From: an uncultured Coriobacteriaceae bacterium
GTDB lineage: Bacteria > Actinomycetota > Coriobacteriia > Coriobacteriales > Coriobacteriaceae
Direction: 5' to 3'
DNA length: 64,000 bases
Assembly: GCA_944320725.1 (NCBI GenBank)
Contig: CALUIM010000003.1
Span: 1 to 64,000 of the forward strand
The position numbers and the translations under genes were made by a program. Shown here one piece after another: positions 29,139 through 63,916 of the stretch (position 1 is its first letter; each line of letters opens with the position of its first letter). Under the pieces are notes generated by a model. The model was not told the DNA's origin. It did no database searches and was given only the letters and a program-made list of their open reading frames with translations.

Positions 29139-30608
29139 GTGGGAGTTCAAGCGCAGGTTCGGCCCAAGGTGTCGCCCGACCGTCGTGAGCGAGGCACGCG
29201 CGAGGAGCGTATGGCGCGCGGGCGCGAGGCGGCTGCGGCCTGTCCGGTAAAGACGCTCGCCGGCTGCACGCCTGCCGCCCGTCGAGCGGACGTGATCGCG
29301 CTGCTCACCGAGCAGTCTGCCTCGCGCGTGGCGGAGCTCATTCCCATACGATATGGCCGTATGAGTGCCTCTCCGTTCGCGTTCTTTCGCGGGTCGGCCA
29401 TCATCCAGGCGCACGATCTTGCCCGGCGTCCTGTGACAGGCATCGAGGTACAGGCCGTTGGCGATGCGCATATCGCAAATTTCGGTATGTTCTTGAGTCC
29501 TACGCGCCATTTGGTGTTCGACATCAACGATTTCGATGAGTGCGCGCCCGGGCCTTGGGAGTGGGACGTGTGCCGCCTTGCCGCAAGTGTGGAACTTTGC
29601 GGGCGCGAGCGCGGTTTTTCCCAGCATGACCGTCGTGCGGCCGTGCGCGCCTGTGCGAAGGCCTATGTTCGCACGATGGCCGAGTTCGCCGCGATGGGCG
29701 AGCTCGATGTGTGGCATGCGCATCTCGACCTCGATGAGGTGGTTTCGCGCTTCGAGGATGAGATGAGCGGCAAGGAGAGCCGGACGCTCCGCCGTGCGAT
29801 GAAGAAAGCGCGCGCGAAGGATTCCGGCCGCGCGGTCGAGAAGCTTGCACGTGTGGAAGACGGGCGTCTGCGCTTCGAGATGCGCCCGCCCGAGCTCGTG
29901 CCGCTTTCCGAGCACCACGGCTATCGCGACGCCGTCGAGCTCTCTCACGCGCTCATGGAGCTCATGCGGCGCTATTTCGACAGCCTGCCCTATGATCGGC
30001 GTTTCTTGCTGAACCGCTACCGGTATCAGGATGCCGCACAGAAGGTGGTGGGCGTGGGCAGCGTGGGCACCCGTGCGTGGGCGGTGCTGCTTGCGGGCAA
30101 AGACGCCAACGATCCGCTTGTGATGCAGGTCAAGGAGGCGCAGCAGTCGGTGGTGGAGCGCTACTGGCGGCCGAGTGGCTTCGATCATGCCGGTGAGCGC
30201 GTGGTGCAGGGCCAGCGCCTCATCCAGTCGACGAGCGATATCCTGCTGGGGTGGACGAGCGTGAGCAATCCGCTTGGCGAGCGACGCGACTACTACGTGC
30301 GGCAGCTGTGGAACGGGAAGGGCTCAATTGACCTCGAGGAGATTGGCGAGGAGGGCCTGCGTTCGACGGCGCGCCTGTGTGCCTGGTCGCTTGCTCATGC
30401 GCATGCTCGTACGGGCGATGGCATCGCGATTGCAGCGTATCTGGGTTACGGGCTGCCCAAGAAGGACGCGCATGACGCGGCCGACGCTTTTGCTGACGCG
30501 CTTGCCGATTACGCGAGCGCCTATGCCGTCCAAAACGAACTCGACTATCAGCTGTTCTGTGAAATGATTGCCACGGGCGAGCTGCCCTGCGTTCAGGAGG
30601 GCGCATAA
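29139..30608 (+). CDS. DUF2252 family protein
   Basis: A 489-residue DUF2252 protein with a kinase-like (aminoglycoside phosphotransferase-related) fold by family description. Characteristic regions are PFAFFRGSA near residue 80, VQAVGDAHIANFGMF, the FDINDFDE acid cluster, VGVGSVGTRAW, and CAWSLAHAHARTGD. I chose GTG 29139, with AAGGG upstream; an ATG at 29210 would be an alternative. It starts 14 bases after tgt and may be in its transcript. Function unknown. A partial copy of the 35.8 kb repeat lies just past its stop (30613-30633). Confidence 0.85.
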   Translation: MGVQAQVRPKVSPDRRERGTREERMARGREAAAACPVKTLAGCTPAARRADVIALLTEQSASRVAELIPIRYGRMSASPFAFFRGSAIIQAHDLARRPVTGIEVQAVGDAHIANFGMFLSPTRHLVFDINDFDECAPGPWEWDVCRLAASVELCGRERGFSQHDRRAAVRACAKAYVRTMAEFAAMGELDVWHAHLDLDEVVSRFEDEMSGKESRTLRRAMKKARAKDSGRAVEKLARVEDGRLRFEMRPPELVPLSEHHGYRDAVELSHALMELMRRYFDSLPYDRRFLLNRYRYQDAAQKVVGVGSVGTRAWAVLLAGKDANDPLVMQVKEAQQSVVERYWRPSGFDHAGERVVQGQRLIQSTSDILLGWTSVSNPLGERRDYYVRQLWNGKGSIDLEEIGEEGLRSTARLCAWSLAHAHARTGDGIAIAAYLGYGLPKKDAHDAADAFADALADYASAYAVQNELDYQLFCEMIATGELPCVQEGA

Positions 30609-30674: not shown

Positions 30675-32072
30675 CTACTGGTCGAGGTCCGAGAGTTCTC
30701 CCAGATCGGTGAGGTCGAGTTCAGAGGCATCGACTAGGCTCTCAGGGCGCTCCGTCTGGCCGTCTAGGGTCGTGGGGATGGTTCCTGCGAGCTGGCCGCG
30801 AATGCTATCTGCGCGTAGCATGCAGAACTGCTCGATAGCCTCGATGCCCGCCAGGAATTCATCATAGGATACAAAGGCGGTGGGATCCTTTGTCACGTAC
30901 GGGGCAATGAGCTCGCGCGCCTGTGCGATTGTCTGTGCGAGCCGGCCGCTGTCCACGTAGCTCACAAGGAGCTCATCAAGGTAGCCGTGATACCGCTCCC
31001 GATACTCATCGACTCGCATGAGCTGCGAGAAGAGGGGCCGCTCTGCAATTACCTCGGACGCGGCAGGCTCATCGATGGGGAGGTTCACATAGGCCGCGGC
31101 GTCGTCTGGAAGTTCCTTTCGGCCCAGGGCGTACGTTCCGAAGGCGAGGTTGTAATCCCAGGGCACCATCTCCATGACGCCATGCTCCTCGTACAGCAGA
31201 TAGTTGTGGCCTGTCGAGCCGAGATAACTGTCGAGGTTCGCGCAGAAAACCTGCACGGCAAAGTAGCGAAGCACCTCGTCGACGTTGACCGCGCGTTCGA
31301 GGTCGACGCCCGATGCGAGCACTTCGAGCGAGCGCACGAGTCGCCGCTCGTCAACCCGCGTTGCGGGGAAGCGCGCGGTCTCGAAGATACCGGGATAGAG
31401 TCCAGGGTCATCACCGATGTAGCGCAGGGCGACATCGGCATTCTCGTCTTCGAGCGACCGATAATCCGGCTTGTAGAGCATGCCGTGCCCCTCACCCCAG
31501 ATGCGCTCGGCGAATGCATCCTCCGCCTCCTCAATGGCAAGAAAAAGACCCCAGGCCTCTCCGTTCACCGTTACAAATACAAAGCTCGTCGCGGGCGTCG
31601 GAACGCCCATGAAGCGCATCATGTCGAGAGCGAGATAGTTTTTGAGATAGCTGTTATCTTGGAACGCGGCATCGAGCGAGAGCTTGTCAAGCCCATGGTA
31701 GGACAGCGAGTCCTCATAATGGTCGAACTCGATTTTGAGGCTATAGCGGGCAAGGCCGCGCCGTGCTACATGTCCTAGCGAGTTATTGCCCTTGGCGCGT
31801 AAGCCCACCCCGGAGAAGCGCTCGCCGTCAATCGTTATATCGACGCGGATGTACTCCTCTTCGGGAGCGCGCGCGATGAAGCCGTTCCAATCGTCGTGCT
31901 CGATATCGATCGTGTGCACCGTGCCAGACTGAAAAAGCCTGCCGAGATAGGCGTCGTTGCGTGCAAGCGTCACGATGCCGGCGCGGCCGAGCGCGGACAA
32001 CGCGAAGGTGAGCGCGATTCCGAGCGCGAGGAGCAACAAGCACGCAATATCGAAGCATCGATTCCGGATCAT
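30675..32072 (-). CDS. CotH-family protein kinase-like protein
   Basis: A 465-residue CotH homologue. One N-terminal membrane or signal segment (about 8-30) is followed by an extracytoplasmic domain. CotH features include GVGLRAKGNNSLGH near residue 90, SLKIEFD, the YLKNYLALDMMRFMG region, and MVPWDYNLAFGTY near 285, where the metal-binding PWDxN is intact. Spore-coat CotH phosphorylates coat proteins; this non-sporulating context suggests an outer-surface kinase or adhesin role, by inference. Last gene of a four-gene operon, five bases after the DUF4956 gene. Confidence 0.88.
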   Translation of the reverse strand: MIRNRCFDIACLLLLALGIALTFALSALGRAGIVTLARNDAYLGRLFQSGTVHTIDIEHDDWNGFIARAPEEEYIRVDITIDGERFSGVGLRAKGNNSLGHVARRGLARYSLKIEFDHYEDSLSYHGLDKLSLDAAFQDNSYLKNYLALDMMRFMGVPTPATSFVFVTVNGEAWGLFLAIEEAEDAFAERIWGEGHGMLYKPDYRSLEDENADVALRYIGDDPGLYPGIFETARFPATRVDERRLVRSLEVLASGVDLERAVNVDEVLRYFAVQVFCANLDSYLGSTGHNYLLYEEHGVMEMVPWDYNLAFGTYALGRKELPDDAAAYVNLPIDEPAASEVIAERPLFSQLMRVDEYRERYHGYLDELLVSYVDSGRLAQTIAQARELIAPYVTKDPTAFVSYDEFLAGIEAIEQFCMLRADSIRGQLAGTIPTTLDGQTERPESLVDASELDLTDLGELSDLDQ

Positions 32073-32077
32073 CGACG

Positions 32078-32749
32078 CTAACCTTGGTAGTCACCGTTGT
32101 AGGAGACGAGTGCCGCGTGCTCGACGCCCTCGAGTGCGCAAAGCGTGCCCACGAAATCGGACGCGCCGTTACGGAGGCGAACCTCGTAGGTGAGCTCCGT
32201 TCCTTCACCGGTCACCGTTTTCGCCTTGAGGGCGCTTGCCTGTACCGCTGCCTCGAGTGTCTCTGCCATACGCTGCTCGGCGGCGTCGTTCTCAACGCGT
32301 ACAGCGAGCATGTAGGGTTGCTCACGATCTTTTTTCGACGAGAGCACCAGCATGATCAGTCCGATAAAGATGCAGCCGAGGATGGCGAGGACAATGAGGC
32401 CGGCTGCCAGCACGATGCCCGTTCCGATGCACCAAAAGAGGTATACGATGTCGAGCGGTTCTTTTACCGGCGTGCGGAAGCGAACTATCGAGAGCGCTCC
32501 CACCATGCCGAGCGACAGGAGCACGTTGCTCGATACCGCGAGGATTACGAGTGTGGTAATGAGCGTGATCGCCACGAGGCACACGCCAAAGCTTGCCGAG
32601 TACATAACGCCTGTGTAGGTGCGCTTGTAGATGAGTAGGATGAAGAGGCCCAGTACGCATGCGAGAACAAGGGCGAGAACGGCGTCCACCAAGGGGACGG
32701 CATCAAAGCGGTCGAGAAACGATGATTTGAAGATGTCGTTGAAGGTCAT
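32078..32749 (-). CDS. DUF4956 membrane protein
   Basis: A 223-residue protein with four hydrophobic segments in its first 140 residues (around VPLVDAVLALVLACVLGL, GVCLVAITLITTLVILAV, and IGTGIVLAAGLIVLAILG) and a soluble C-terminal domain (EVRLRNGASDFVGTL). The membrane loop GMVGALSIVRFRTPVKEP is the conserved DUF4956 motif. The start is ATG 32749 with AGGAAACACC upstream. Between the VTC gene and cotH; the family is repeatedly seen beside VTC domains, which suggests a joint membrane complex. Function unknown. Confidence 0.88.
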   Translation of the reverse strand: MTFNDIFKSSFLDRFDAVPLVDAVLALVLACVLGLFILLIYKRTYTGVMYSASFGVCLVAITLITTLVILAVSSNVLLSLGMVGALSIVRFRTPVKEPLDIVYLFWCIGTGIVLAAGLIVLAILGCIFIGLIMLVLSSKKDREQPYMLAVRVENDAAEQRMAETLEAAVQASALKAKTVTGEGTELTYEVRLRNGASDFVGTLCALEGVEHAALVSYNGDYQG

Positions 32750-32811
32750 GGTGTTTCCTGTCTGGCGATGTACCGGCGGTCTTGACGGTTGGACGAATGG
32801 GGGTTGAGTAG

Positions 32812-33507
32812 CTACTCGAGTCGTCTGGCAAGCGCGTATTTCGACCATGCGCAACGAACGGCTCCGGGTACCTGGATGGCGGCGCGTACGATATCAGGGA
32901 GGTAGGCGTCGTATTTCACTTCGAGTACCACCTCGCCGGGCTGGACGGGGACGAGCGGCATCGCGGAGTCCGTAAGGGCACGGGCACAAGGAGCCGACCT
33001 CATCCGAGAATCGATGGTGACGCGCACGTTGCCAGCTTCATAGCGAAACGGTTCTCGCTCATAAACGACGACGGTTACCGGGCGCATACGCATGGTTGCC
33101 GCGAGGTTCAGAAACTCGGCGAGCAGCGGCGGGTCGTTTCGGGCGGGCTTGCGGAAATGACCGGCCTCAAGCGTCTGCGCTTCGACTCGCGATATCCGGG
33201 CTGCGCGCTTGCGGCCAACGCCATCGGTTTTCGCCTTGCATTCAAGTTTGAAATAATCTCCCGAACCGTCACCGTAGGTGCGAATACGCCATTTGGCGCG
33301 CTTGCTGTAGCCCTCGGTCTTTTGGCGAAGGGCGTCGTCTGCGAGCGTGTCGAAGTAGAGGCTTCGTACGGTATAGCGGCCATCCGACCCGGCGTTGCCG
33401 TCGCGTGCGAGCAGCAGGCCGAGCCGGCGGGAGAGCGCGAGGGCATCACCATCCGAGACGAGGTACTTCAGCTCATGACGAAAGCGGGGTGCCGGTGATG
33501 CATGCAT
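32812..33507 (-). CDS. VTC domain protein (polyphosphate polymerase-like)
   Basis: A 231-residue VTC domain, the triphosphate-tunnel fold that makes polyphosphate from ATP in yeast vacuoles. Tunnel basic and acidic residues appear in FRHELKYLVSD, YTVRSLYFDT, AKWRIRTYGDG, FKLECKAKTDG, TVVVYEREPFRY, and VVLEVKYDAYLPD, in the family order. Its ATG overlaps the stop of the RsgI-like gene by one base. Whether it makes polyphosphate or binds a different polyanion or nucleotide is not known. Soluble on its own; it presumably sits at the membrane with the DUF4956 protein. Confidence 0.88.
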   Translation of the reverse strand: MHASPAPRFRHELKYLVSDGDALALSRRLGLLLARDGNAGSDGRYTVRSLYFDTLADDALRQKTEGYSKRAKWRIRTYGDGSGDYFKLECKAKTDGVGRKRAARISRVEAQTLEAGHFRKPARNDPPLLAEFLNLAATMRMRPVTVVVYEREPFRYEAGNVRVTIDSRMRSAPCARALTDSAMPLVPVQPGEVVLEVKYDAYLPDIVRAAIQVPGAVRCAWSKYALARRLE

Positions 33508-34454
33508 TAGTCGTCGTAGCCAGAATCGTCGTGACCGGAGTTACCTGAATCGTAGCCTGAGTTATAACCCGAGTTGCCCGAATCATGACCCGAGTCGTAA
33601 TCGCTGTTGCTCGGCGTGGGTGCCGGTGCCGGCGTGGGCTCGGGTGCCGGTGCCGGTGCGGGTGTCGATGCTGCGGAGCCGCTCGACGAGCCACCGCTTG
33701 ATGAGCCGGTGGATCCCGAGCCGCCGGAGCCTGCATGGTTGCTATAGCCCGAGTTGGAATTCGAGCTGGTTCCGTAATCGGTGTAGTTCGTAGAACCTGA
33801 ACTGCCGGTTGCTGCGGGTTGCTCGTAATCCGTAACGCCGTCGTTCAGCGGGCCATAGTCGGAGTCGTTGTAATCGGTGACGCCATCGTTGTCGGGGCCA
33901 TAGTCCGAATCGGCGTAGTCGGTCCAACCGTAATTGCTCGCGCCTACGACCTGCATGGAGGCAGACGCCTGCTGGCCTTTCATATACGTTTGAGTGTCGA
34001 GCACGATGTTGCGCAGGAAGTCGTTGGCGGGAAGCGAAGAGCCTTCCTCGACTTCGAGGTCAATAACGTTGCCTTCACCCTCGACCTCTTCAATCAGATA
34101 TCCCGCTTCGCGAATCTTTGCAACGAGGCCGGATATCGCGGCACGGCATTCCTGGCCTTCATATCCTGTGAGGTCGAGACCCATAGCGCGCGCGTCGTCG
34201 TTGCGCTCCTCAACGCCGACCACCATGCCCTGGGCATCGTAGTGAATGGCGAATTCCGGATTTACGCGCAAAATGAGCGTGCCCCCGCCCTCGGGATAGG
34301 GAAGTTCCGGCTCGGGGGCCGGCGTTGCCTGCTGTTCTTGCACCGTTTGCACGGGAGCTCCTGGGAAAACCTGTGCGAGTGCGTAGAGTGCACCGCCGCC
34401 CACGATCAAAGCGAGCAGCGTGGCGAGCACGATGGTCAGGTGTTTGTTCGTCAT
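33507..34454 (-). CDS. RsgI-like membrane protein with repeat-rich C-terminus
   Basis: A 315-residue single-pass protein. Residues about 6-28 are a membrane helix (TIVLATLLALIVGGGALYAL), then a domain beginning NPEFAIHYDAQGMVVGVEER that resembles the mid-domain of RsgI-type anti-sigma factors. The rest is outside the membrane and low in complexity: two copies of DSDYGPxNDGVTDY near residues 185-215, Ser/Gly- and Pro-rich spans, and a tail of Asp/Ser/Gly/Tyr repeats. No sigma factor gene lies adjacent, and the cytoplasmic anti-sigma helix is absent or very short. The start is ATG 34454 after AAGGGGTG. It heads the VTC operon. Confidence 0.72.
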   Translation of the reverse strand: MTNKHLTIVLATLLALIVGGGALYALAQVFPGAPVQTVQEQQATPAPEPELPYPEGGGTLILRVNPEFAIHYDAQGMVVGVEERNDDARAMGLDLTGYEGQECRAAISGLVAKIREAGYLIEEVEGEGNVIDLEVEEGSSLPANDFLRNIVLDTQTYMKGQQASASMQVVGASNYGWTDYADSDYGPDNDGVTDYNDSDYGPLNDGVTDYEQPAATGSSGSTNYTDYGTSSNSNSGYSNHAGSGGSGSTGSSSGGSSSGSAASTPAPAPAPEPTPAPAPTPSNSDYDSGHDSGNSGYNSGYDSGNSGHDDSGYDD

Positions 34455-34851
34455 GTTGTTCACCCCTTGGTCGCTTAGCGGGTCTCTTGCGCCGGAGCTT
34501 CGCCCCGATGATCGGCTCCCCTCGTTCAGGAGTCGGTCGCCCTGCCAAGGGGTAGCCAAGCAAGTATGTATCACGAATCGCGCGCCGGCCAGCTCCTCAC
34601 ATGTGTAAGCATTCTGTAAGGCCCGATCTTTGCTCCGCCTACCGACGCAACTTGACCGTTGACAGATTTTTCGATGACGAAAACTTTACCCCCTCGGATG
34701 CGTTTGTCCAGCTCATAGGGCTAAACTGATGAGGGTATAACTTACACCATGTCATTTTGATTCTCATTGTCTAGGACGTTTCGAATCCGTTTATCGGATC
34801 CCTGAAAAGCGTGCGTCGTCCTTCGGCACTGGGGCTGAGTGAGGAGAGGTC
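34455..34851. other. divergent promoter region between RsgI-like and LOG genes
   Basis: This 397-base gap has no gene. It contains TTGACA at 34659-34664, TATAAC at 34736-34741 and a short hairpin GAATCCG/CGGATcC near 34780-34798, all facing the LOG gene, but no well-spaced -35/-10 pair stands out on either strand. Confidence 0.4.
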
Positions 34852-63709: not shown

Positions 63710-63916
63710 CATGGTTGCTTTACTGTGCCGAGGTCATTGTAAGCTGCCGGTAAGATGCATGCCATTGCTGCGTAATGCTTGATAAGAGCATCGTAATAAG
63801 AGGTGAACGAGCAAATTCGGTCGGTAGACGCACGATAGAGTACGTAGTCGAACCGCGGACGTCCTGTGCGGCGCCCGCACCGCTGTTGCGAATGGAATGT
63901 TCGCGAAAGGAGAACC

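Follow-up and report, generated by a model that had tools for sequence, protein, structure and literature searches.

A free-standing RsgI_M-VTC-DUF4956-CotH operon from an uncultured Coriobacteriaceae bacterium: a possible phosphate-regulated envelope module

What might a polyphosphate-polymerase-like protein, a membrane protein of the DUF4956 family, an atypical kinase and an RsgI-like surface protein do together when they are encoded in one operon? This question is raised by a 64,000-nucleotide stretch of contig CALUIM010000003.1 (the window: positions 1 to 64,000) from an uncultured, gut-type Coriobacteriaceae bacterium, in which four minus-strand genes run from position 34454 to 30675. The open reading frame list and Pfam give their order as an RsgI_M-domain surface protein (315 residues; 33507..34454; PF23750, 7.5e-8), a VTC or triphosphate-tunnel polyphosphate-polymerase-like protein (231 residues; 32812..33507; PF09359, 3.5e-30), a DUF4956 membrane protein (223 residues; 32078..32749; PF16316, 2.3e-10) and a CotH-type kinase with an N-terminal membrane anchor (465 residues; 30675..32072; PF08757, 1.4e-56). 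All four Pfam matches exceed the cut-off. Our tentative answer is that the operon encodes a phosphate-regulated envelope module, for phosphorylation or for polyphosphate, with a dedicated substrate. We favour this reading because of the tunnel residues, the synteny, the co-occurrence of CotH with VTC, the membrane anchor and the swaps of the third gene, the surface protein tails, an upstream DNA box and the presence of a separate PPK1.

The grouping of these genes, with spacings of -1, 62 and 5 bases, had been proposed in a first-pass annotation of the sequence, and the coordinates agree. It is far beyond chance, since other genera, families and phyla have the identical gene order. Three genera keep the four-gene order (L028-L035), and the same RsgI-VTC-DUF4956-CotH order was found in two further families. 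In the 67 genomes of the window's family, VTC is present in 24 of the 24 genomes with CotH, and the only other VTC match is a remnant (G040). When 249 genomes of the order are considered, VTC is the neighbour of CotH in 33 of the 34 strongest CotH matches (E<1e-50). Named genomes were scanned for relatives of DUF4956, which yielded 80 loci from Bacillota, Actinomycetota and Chloroflexota, and VTC lies directly before DUF4956 in 79 of them; the eightieth is at a contig end. Thus the VTC-DUF4956-CotH association that the first-pass annotation described as recurrent does extend well beyond close strains, and the envelope setting that it suggested is also supported. On a tree of VTC plus DUF4956, the RsgI-linked modules form one clade (SH-aLRT 100), including one Carnobacteriaceae locus whose contig starts too near VTC to tell RsgI linkage. 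A search for viral copies of the module found none. Separately, decaying copies point to ongoing loss of the module (L042 5116-7894, L040 8747-9854 and L041): CotH is interrupted in G020, VTC has an internal stop in G026 and only the VTC remnant is left in G040.

The VTC protein has no transmembrane segment. Its polyphosphate-polymerase fold is confirmed by the PF09359 match and by an alignment profile that matched Vtc4 structures at 9.7e-10; the profile was required, as phmmer with the single VTC sequence gave no match in the PDB. Loss of the tunnel residues would have spoken against the first-pass interpretation, and every Vtc4 residue that we tested by alignment is retained. The hidden Markov model alignment places equivalents of K200, R264, R266, K281, K294, Y359, R361 and R373, and those of E426 and K458 were assigned by motif as E196 and K223. 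These tunnel residues are conserved in 92-93 of 93 relatives. At the tunnel exit, the patch contains two basic residues, R10 and K198, probably a third, K93, and an acidic, invariant E12. This patch bears on a different reading: the protein would be no polymerase but a tunnel phosphatase or nucleoside triphosphate sensor, and the module would control the outer protein according to phosphate status. In tunnel polyphosphatases, one residue of the acidic patch corresponds to E12 (PMC4641920), and deletion of the Streptococcus intermedius VTC homologue had no phenotype (PMC12345266). However, R10 and K198, and probably K93, occupy the positions of the acidic patch in the hydrolases, and the equivalent of the catalytic K458 is retained; we regard the sensor or phosphatase reading as unlikely. 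The genome (99.5% complete, 2.07 Mb), which has one VTC gene and one CotH gene, also encodes PPK1, and VTC is therefore not needed for bulk polyphosphate storage.

DUF4956 carries an invariant SLGMVGALSIVR(F)R...K in the A3 alignment, and R90, R92 and K96 are retained in 95 of 95 relatives. It had been described as a four-helix membrane protein, but its AlphaFold2 model (pLDDT 79.8) shows five hydrophobic helices and, at the C-terminus, an ACT-like domain. This domain resembles the MgtC C-terminal domain 2lqj in a Foldseek search, if weakly (TMt 0.68, E 5.9e-3). The positive-inside rule would place the basic segment on the cytosolic side, beside VTC.

The last gene encodes a CotH-type kinase, as first annotated, with both catalytic aspartates intact. 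It matches 5jd9 by phmmer at 7.3e-18, and its D281 and D306 align to D228 and D251 of Bacillus CotH, where the substitutions D228Q and D251A inactivate the protein (PMC7821199). CotH as the output of the system holds for this operon but not for the module in general: the gene after DUF4956 is CotH in 52 of the 80 loci and encodes a Cthe_2159 (PF14262) beta-helix protein in 28. These counts were made with kinase-domain-only and beta-helix-only queries. A count in which the third gene was CotH in nearly all loci came from an iterated profile that had drifted, and the sequences themselves led us to reject it. The ectodomains of CotH and Cthe_2159 are unrelated; in the module, both have a common N-terminal membrane anchor of ~38 residues, which lies at 31959..32072 (minus strand) in the window's CotH gene. 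An hhalign comparison of the CotH and Cthe_2159 anchors gave 99.4% (E 3.9e-21), with five control membrane segments at <=17%. The anchor is absent from Pel-type and GT2-type CotH proteins, and in a single orphan CotH (L295) a lipoprotein signal takes its place. The third gene switches between CotH and Cthe_2159 ~9 times on the VTC plus DUF4956 tree, the exact number being unsure given some long branches, and at least 2 switches are forced by strongly supported branches. Because unrelated ectodomains have one anchor and are swapped on the tree, the VTC-DUF4956 pair resembles an engine whose outputs can be exchanged.

Two genes near such loci are recorded here for their own sake. A DUF2252 gene (29211-30608, plus strand, E 6e-137) lies tail-to-tail with CotH at 66 bases, outside the operon. 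In a Coriobacteriaceae genome, a 1509-residue protein with six ChW repeats, predicted to be at the surface, is encoded just upstream of a Cthe_2159-type module (L112 4138-8667).

The exchange of the third gene might also be taken to mean that the parts are independent and merely have one promoter, with VTC and DUF4956 serving only as an intracellular buffer of phosphate or polyphosphate and CotH acting as an unlinked, ATP-using secreted kinase. The yeast VTC does store polyphosphate (PMC9911596), and VTC plus DUF4956 are also paired with a non-kinase partner. The near-invariant order across phyla, the single anchor on otherwise unrelated partners, the co-loss of the genes in the family and the presence of a separate PPK1 all argue against independence, to which we give a rather low probability.

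The RsgI_M protein begins with a signal anchor or signal peptide, followed by the RsgI_M ectodomain (~33972-34265), and it has orthologues in L028-L035, L277-L281, L082 and L116. After the ectodomain comes a disordered-type tail (33510..33947, minus strand, limits approximate), delimited from sequence, a repeat search and composition, with repeats of the form DSDYGPxNDGVTDY and then a Ser/Gly/Tyr/Asn/Asp C-terminus ending in SGYDD. The DTDYGPNNDGVTDYN repeats are present in 2 copies in the window (33510-33947) and in 7 copies in L082 (8071-9288); they may be akin to thrombospondin type 3 repeats, which are acidic and bind calcium. Operon-linked RsgI_M proteins of families f1, f2 and f5 and of Bacillota (L082, L106, L116) have Ser/Tyr/Gly/Asn/Asp tails, mostly ending in SGYDD or near it. 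Ser, Thr and Tyr make up a median of 35% of the last 60 residues in operon-linked proteins, compared to 3% in unlinked relatives, which mostly have poly-Asp tails. The CotH proteins differ as well: in those linked to RsgI, the chain stops 36-54 residues past the kinase domain (17 of 17), but the tails of the unlinked ones that we scored (n=42) have a median length of 131 residues, and 27 of these 42 proteins have a C-terminal membrane helix. Because of this difference, we suggest that a flexible substrate-like region may be provided either in trans, by the RsgI_M protein, or in cis. The RsgI_M tail is a likely candidate for the surface substrate of CotH.

We retain this link between CotH and the tail for the operon-linked RsgI_M protein only. 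CotH as the cause of Ser/Tyr tails on the separate SigI-RsgI proteins was considered, and it is weakened by one genome with CotH and poly-Asp tails (G121) and another with an SGY-type tail and no CotH (G043). A C-terminal YDD-stop was also rejected as a genome-wide substrate tag; one of its extra matches resembles a PTS EIIA-type protein and is put down to chance.

The presence of an RsgI_M domain suggests another role for this protein, as the sensor of a SigI-type sigma/anti-sigma circuit controlling the operon. L082 does have a SigI-like factor and a complete RsgI upstream of the same module genes, and a true SigI-RsgI-lipoprotein operon, located elsewhere in the window's genome, is preceded by the same box as the four-gene operon. 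The window protein, however, has ~5 residues before its membrane helix and no Pfam match to the RsgI_N anti-sigma domain (PF12791), and no sigma gene adjoins the operon. A search for a SigI-type promoter before the four genes found none, and several carrier genomes (G050, G060, G063, G064) have the module without a separate SigI-RsgI pair. The earlier description of an RsgI-like membrane protein therefore stands for the ectodomain and the anchor or signal peptide, but without RsgI_N the protein is not, by its sequence, an anti-sigma factor, and a sigma circuit is very improbable. The SigI-RsgI-lipoprotein operon itself, on contig C19 (L127 9535-12210), encodes a SigI-like factor, an RsgI and an RsgI_M/PepSY lipoprotein with SGYDD tails; many genomes of the order keep this operon, there with poly-Asp tails and again preceded by the box.

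This box, YTTAC-N6-YTTAC, occurs before the four-gene operon, the SigI-RsgI operon, pst and pit. We presume that it is akin to the Bacillus PhoP box. In the window, the stricter form CTTAC-N6-CTTAC has 2 sites only, with 0 in shuffled sequences. The first, the PhoP/OmpR-type direct repeat CTTACAGAATGCTTAC (34605..34620, minus strand), is ~150 bp upstream of the operon, and the second (63739..63754, minus strand) is ~160 bp upstream of pstS. The latter gene starts at ~63917, and its pstSCAB operon, with PstS, PstC, PstA and PstB all named by NCBIfam above cut-off, continues beyond the window end. In ~719 kb of the same genome (a 35% sample), the box occurs elsewhere only before the SigI operon and at the Pit phosphate transporter (PF01384), in an intergenic region common to Pit and a nitroreductase gene. 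The position of the pst box is conserved in three relatives with C/T variation, and the box is also conserved before orthologous module operons and before the SigI operons of f1 and f5. In clostridia, the PhoP-like TTHAC-N6-TTHAC precedes 17 of 73 modules compared to 6 of 622 other genes (Fisher p ~2e-13), and a histidine kinase/OmpR-type regulator pair, recognized by clustering with domains checked for one locus, is near about a third of the loci, often adjoining VTC. Since its box also precedes pst and pit, the operon is probably under phosphate control, activating or repressing. The earlier account, incomplete in this respect, had missed the phosphate box as well as the connection with the SigI-RsgI operon. 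Two further observations concern these elements: a triple CTTAC repeat stands between the Pit transporter and nitroreductase genes (L311 6376-6402), and pairs that gene length and clustering mark as a histidine kinase with an OmpR-type regulator are divergent from the VTC module in L052, L057, L058, L066, L075, L083 and L100, with domains confirmed for L052.

The same three families are also known from Pel loci, where the three genes might tune the production or retention of a surface polysaccharide, and the operon could be such an exopolysaccharide accessory module, acting on a different polymer that is made elsewhere in the genome. The set does occur within Pel clusters of a sister genus, with CotH-VTC-DUF4956 beside PelF and PelG, and of streptococci, clostridia and bifidobacteria (PMC7112168). 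In an mBio paper of 2025 on the Pel locus of S. intermedius, the sole mutant study of these genes, they were deleted singly, and deletion of two of the three altered the level of Pel; its authors did not find the three-gene arrangement outside Pel loci (PMC12345266). G020 and G065 have the genes in a third setting, among GT2, HEAT and GH-like genes, which resembles Clostridium perfringens NELoc-2 (PMC2879425). On the other side, our search found no PelG in the window's genome, where the operon is not contiguous with pelDEADAFG. Of 43 carrier genomes searched whole, 35 have no PelG, 6 have one above cut-off and 2 a weak match. None of the 80 loci has PelF or PelG within 10 kb, and there is no conserved glycosyltransferase neighbour among them. 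We give an accessory role in polysaccharide production a rather low probability.

How could the phosphate-regulated envelope module work? In the cytosol, VTC would build a polyphosphate-like chain from the gamma-phosphate of ATP. DUF4956, MgtC-like, with its basic R-x-R-x3-K segment and cytosolic ACT-like sensor domain, might couple or gate VTC activity at the membrane and would probably pass the product outward; in the logic of yeast VTC, a cytosolic tunnel enzyme feeds a basic membrane channel (PMC9911596). The third protein may dock on VTC-DUF4956 through its conserved N-terminal membrane helix, facing outward. CotH would then phosphorylate the Ser/Tyr-rich tail of the co-encoded surface protein, a step modelled on Bacillus CotH, which phosphorylates the Ser-rich repeats of CotB and CotG. 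A bolder version, which we think quite unlikely, is that VTC plus DUF4956 form a split bacterial VTC that exports polyphosphate, and that the outward-docked CotH uses this polymer in place of ATP as phosphoryl donor, or attaches it, to the Ser/Tyr tails, the engine being re-used elsewhere with a beta-helix partner that binds carbohydrate. That the chain is exported and serves outside as a phosphate donor is attractive but unproven.

Several observations weigh against the envelope module that we favour. Invariant E12 is acidic, as in the tunnel polyphosphatases. In S. intermedius, deletion of the VTC homologue gave no aggregation phenotype and deletion of the DUF4956 and CotH homologues did (PMC12345266). 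The topology of DUF4956 is modelled at modest confidence. Box orientation at pst and pit is opposite to that at the module, so that the operon may be either activated or repressed. Finally, the tail type tracks lineage as well as CotH, since the separate SigI-RsgI proteins of G121 keep poly-Asp tails despite its CotH and unlinked relatives in the window's genus also end in SGYDD tails.

The protein families and their association are already known, and each known system resembles the operon in part. The cotH-PPP-DUF4956(-DUF4832) set of Pel loci (PMC7112168; SIR_1592-1594 in PMC12345266) has the same three families, adjacent and co-directional, with an outward-facing CotH, a cytosolic VTC and a multi-transmembrane DUF4956 with an ACT-like domain. 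In contrast, our operon is free-standing in a genome without PelG and has an extra RsgI_M surface protein, a module-specific CotH anchor, a phosphate-type box and a DUF4956 of another clade, 39% identical to the Pel-type DUF4956 of the sister genus. In NELoc-2 of C. perfringens (PMC2879425; PMC11677781), a sigma factor and an anti-sigma-domain protein stand beside VTC, with CotH downstream, and CP4_0461 and CP4_0464 ('tubulin/FtsZ') are, from their size and position, probably DUF4956; HEAT and GT2 genes then follow, and the locus contains two VTC copies and a resolvase; our operon has no such additions. The yeast VTC complex has a tunnel polymerase domain with the same catalytic residues and a proposed coupling to a basic membrane path. 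Here, by contrast, the polymerase and membrane parts are separate proteins, the SPX domain is absent, the membrane partner is MgtC-like and there is an extracytoplasmic kinase. With the Bacillus CotB-CotG-CotH spore coat module (PMC7821199), the operon has in common the catalytic aspartates and an atypical kinase encoded with repetitive Ser-rich proteins. Unlike Bacillus CotH, its kinase is membrane-anchored, predicted to face outward and coupled to VTC-DUF4956, and it shows no sign of a spore setting; the tail is rich in Ser/Tyr/Gly/Asp, not Ser/Lys/Arg. SigI-RsgI systems have the RsgI_M ectodomain in common with the window protein, which differs from them in lacking the anti-sigma domain. 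What is new, to our knowledge, is that the module can stand alone with a linked RsgI_M gene, that its anchored output is exchangeable, that it is probably under phosphate control and that it comes with a candidate substrate.

With these results, a gene trio of obscure role is no longer confined to the Pel locus but belongs to a widespread envelope system that is probably regulated by phosphate. The operon offers four handles on it: the polymerase activity, the candidate kinase substrate, the common docking anchor and the DNA box. It also bears on how kinases outside bacteria, where ATP is scarce, might obtain their phosphate.

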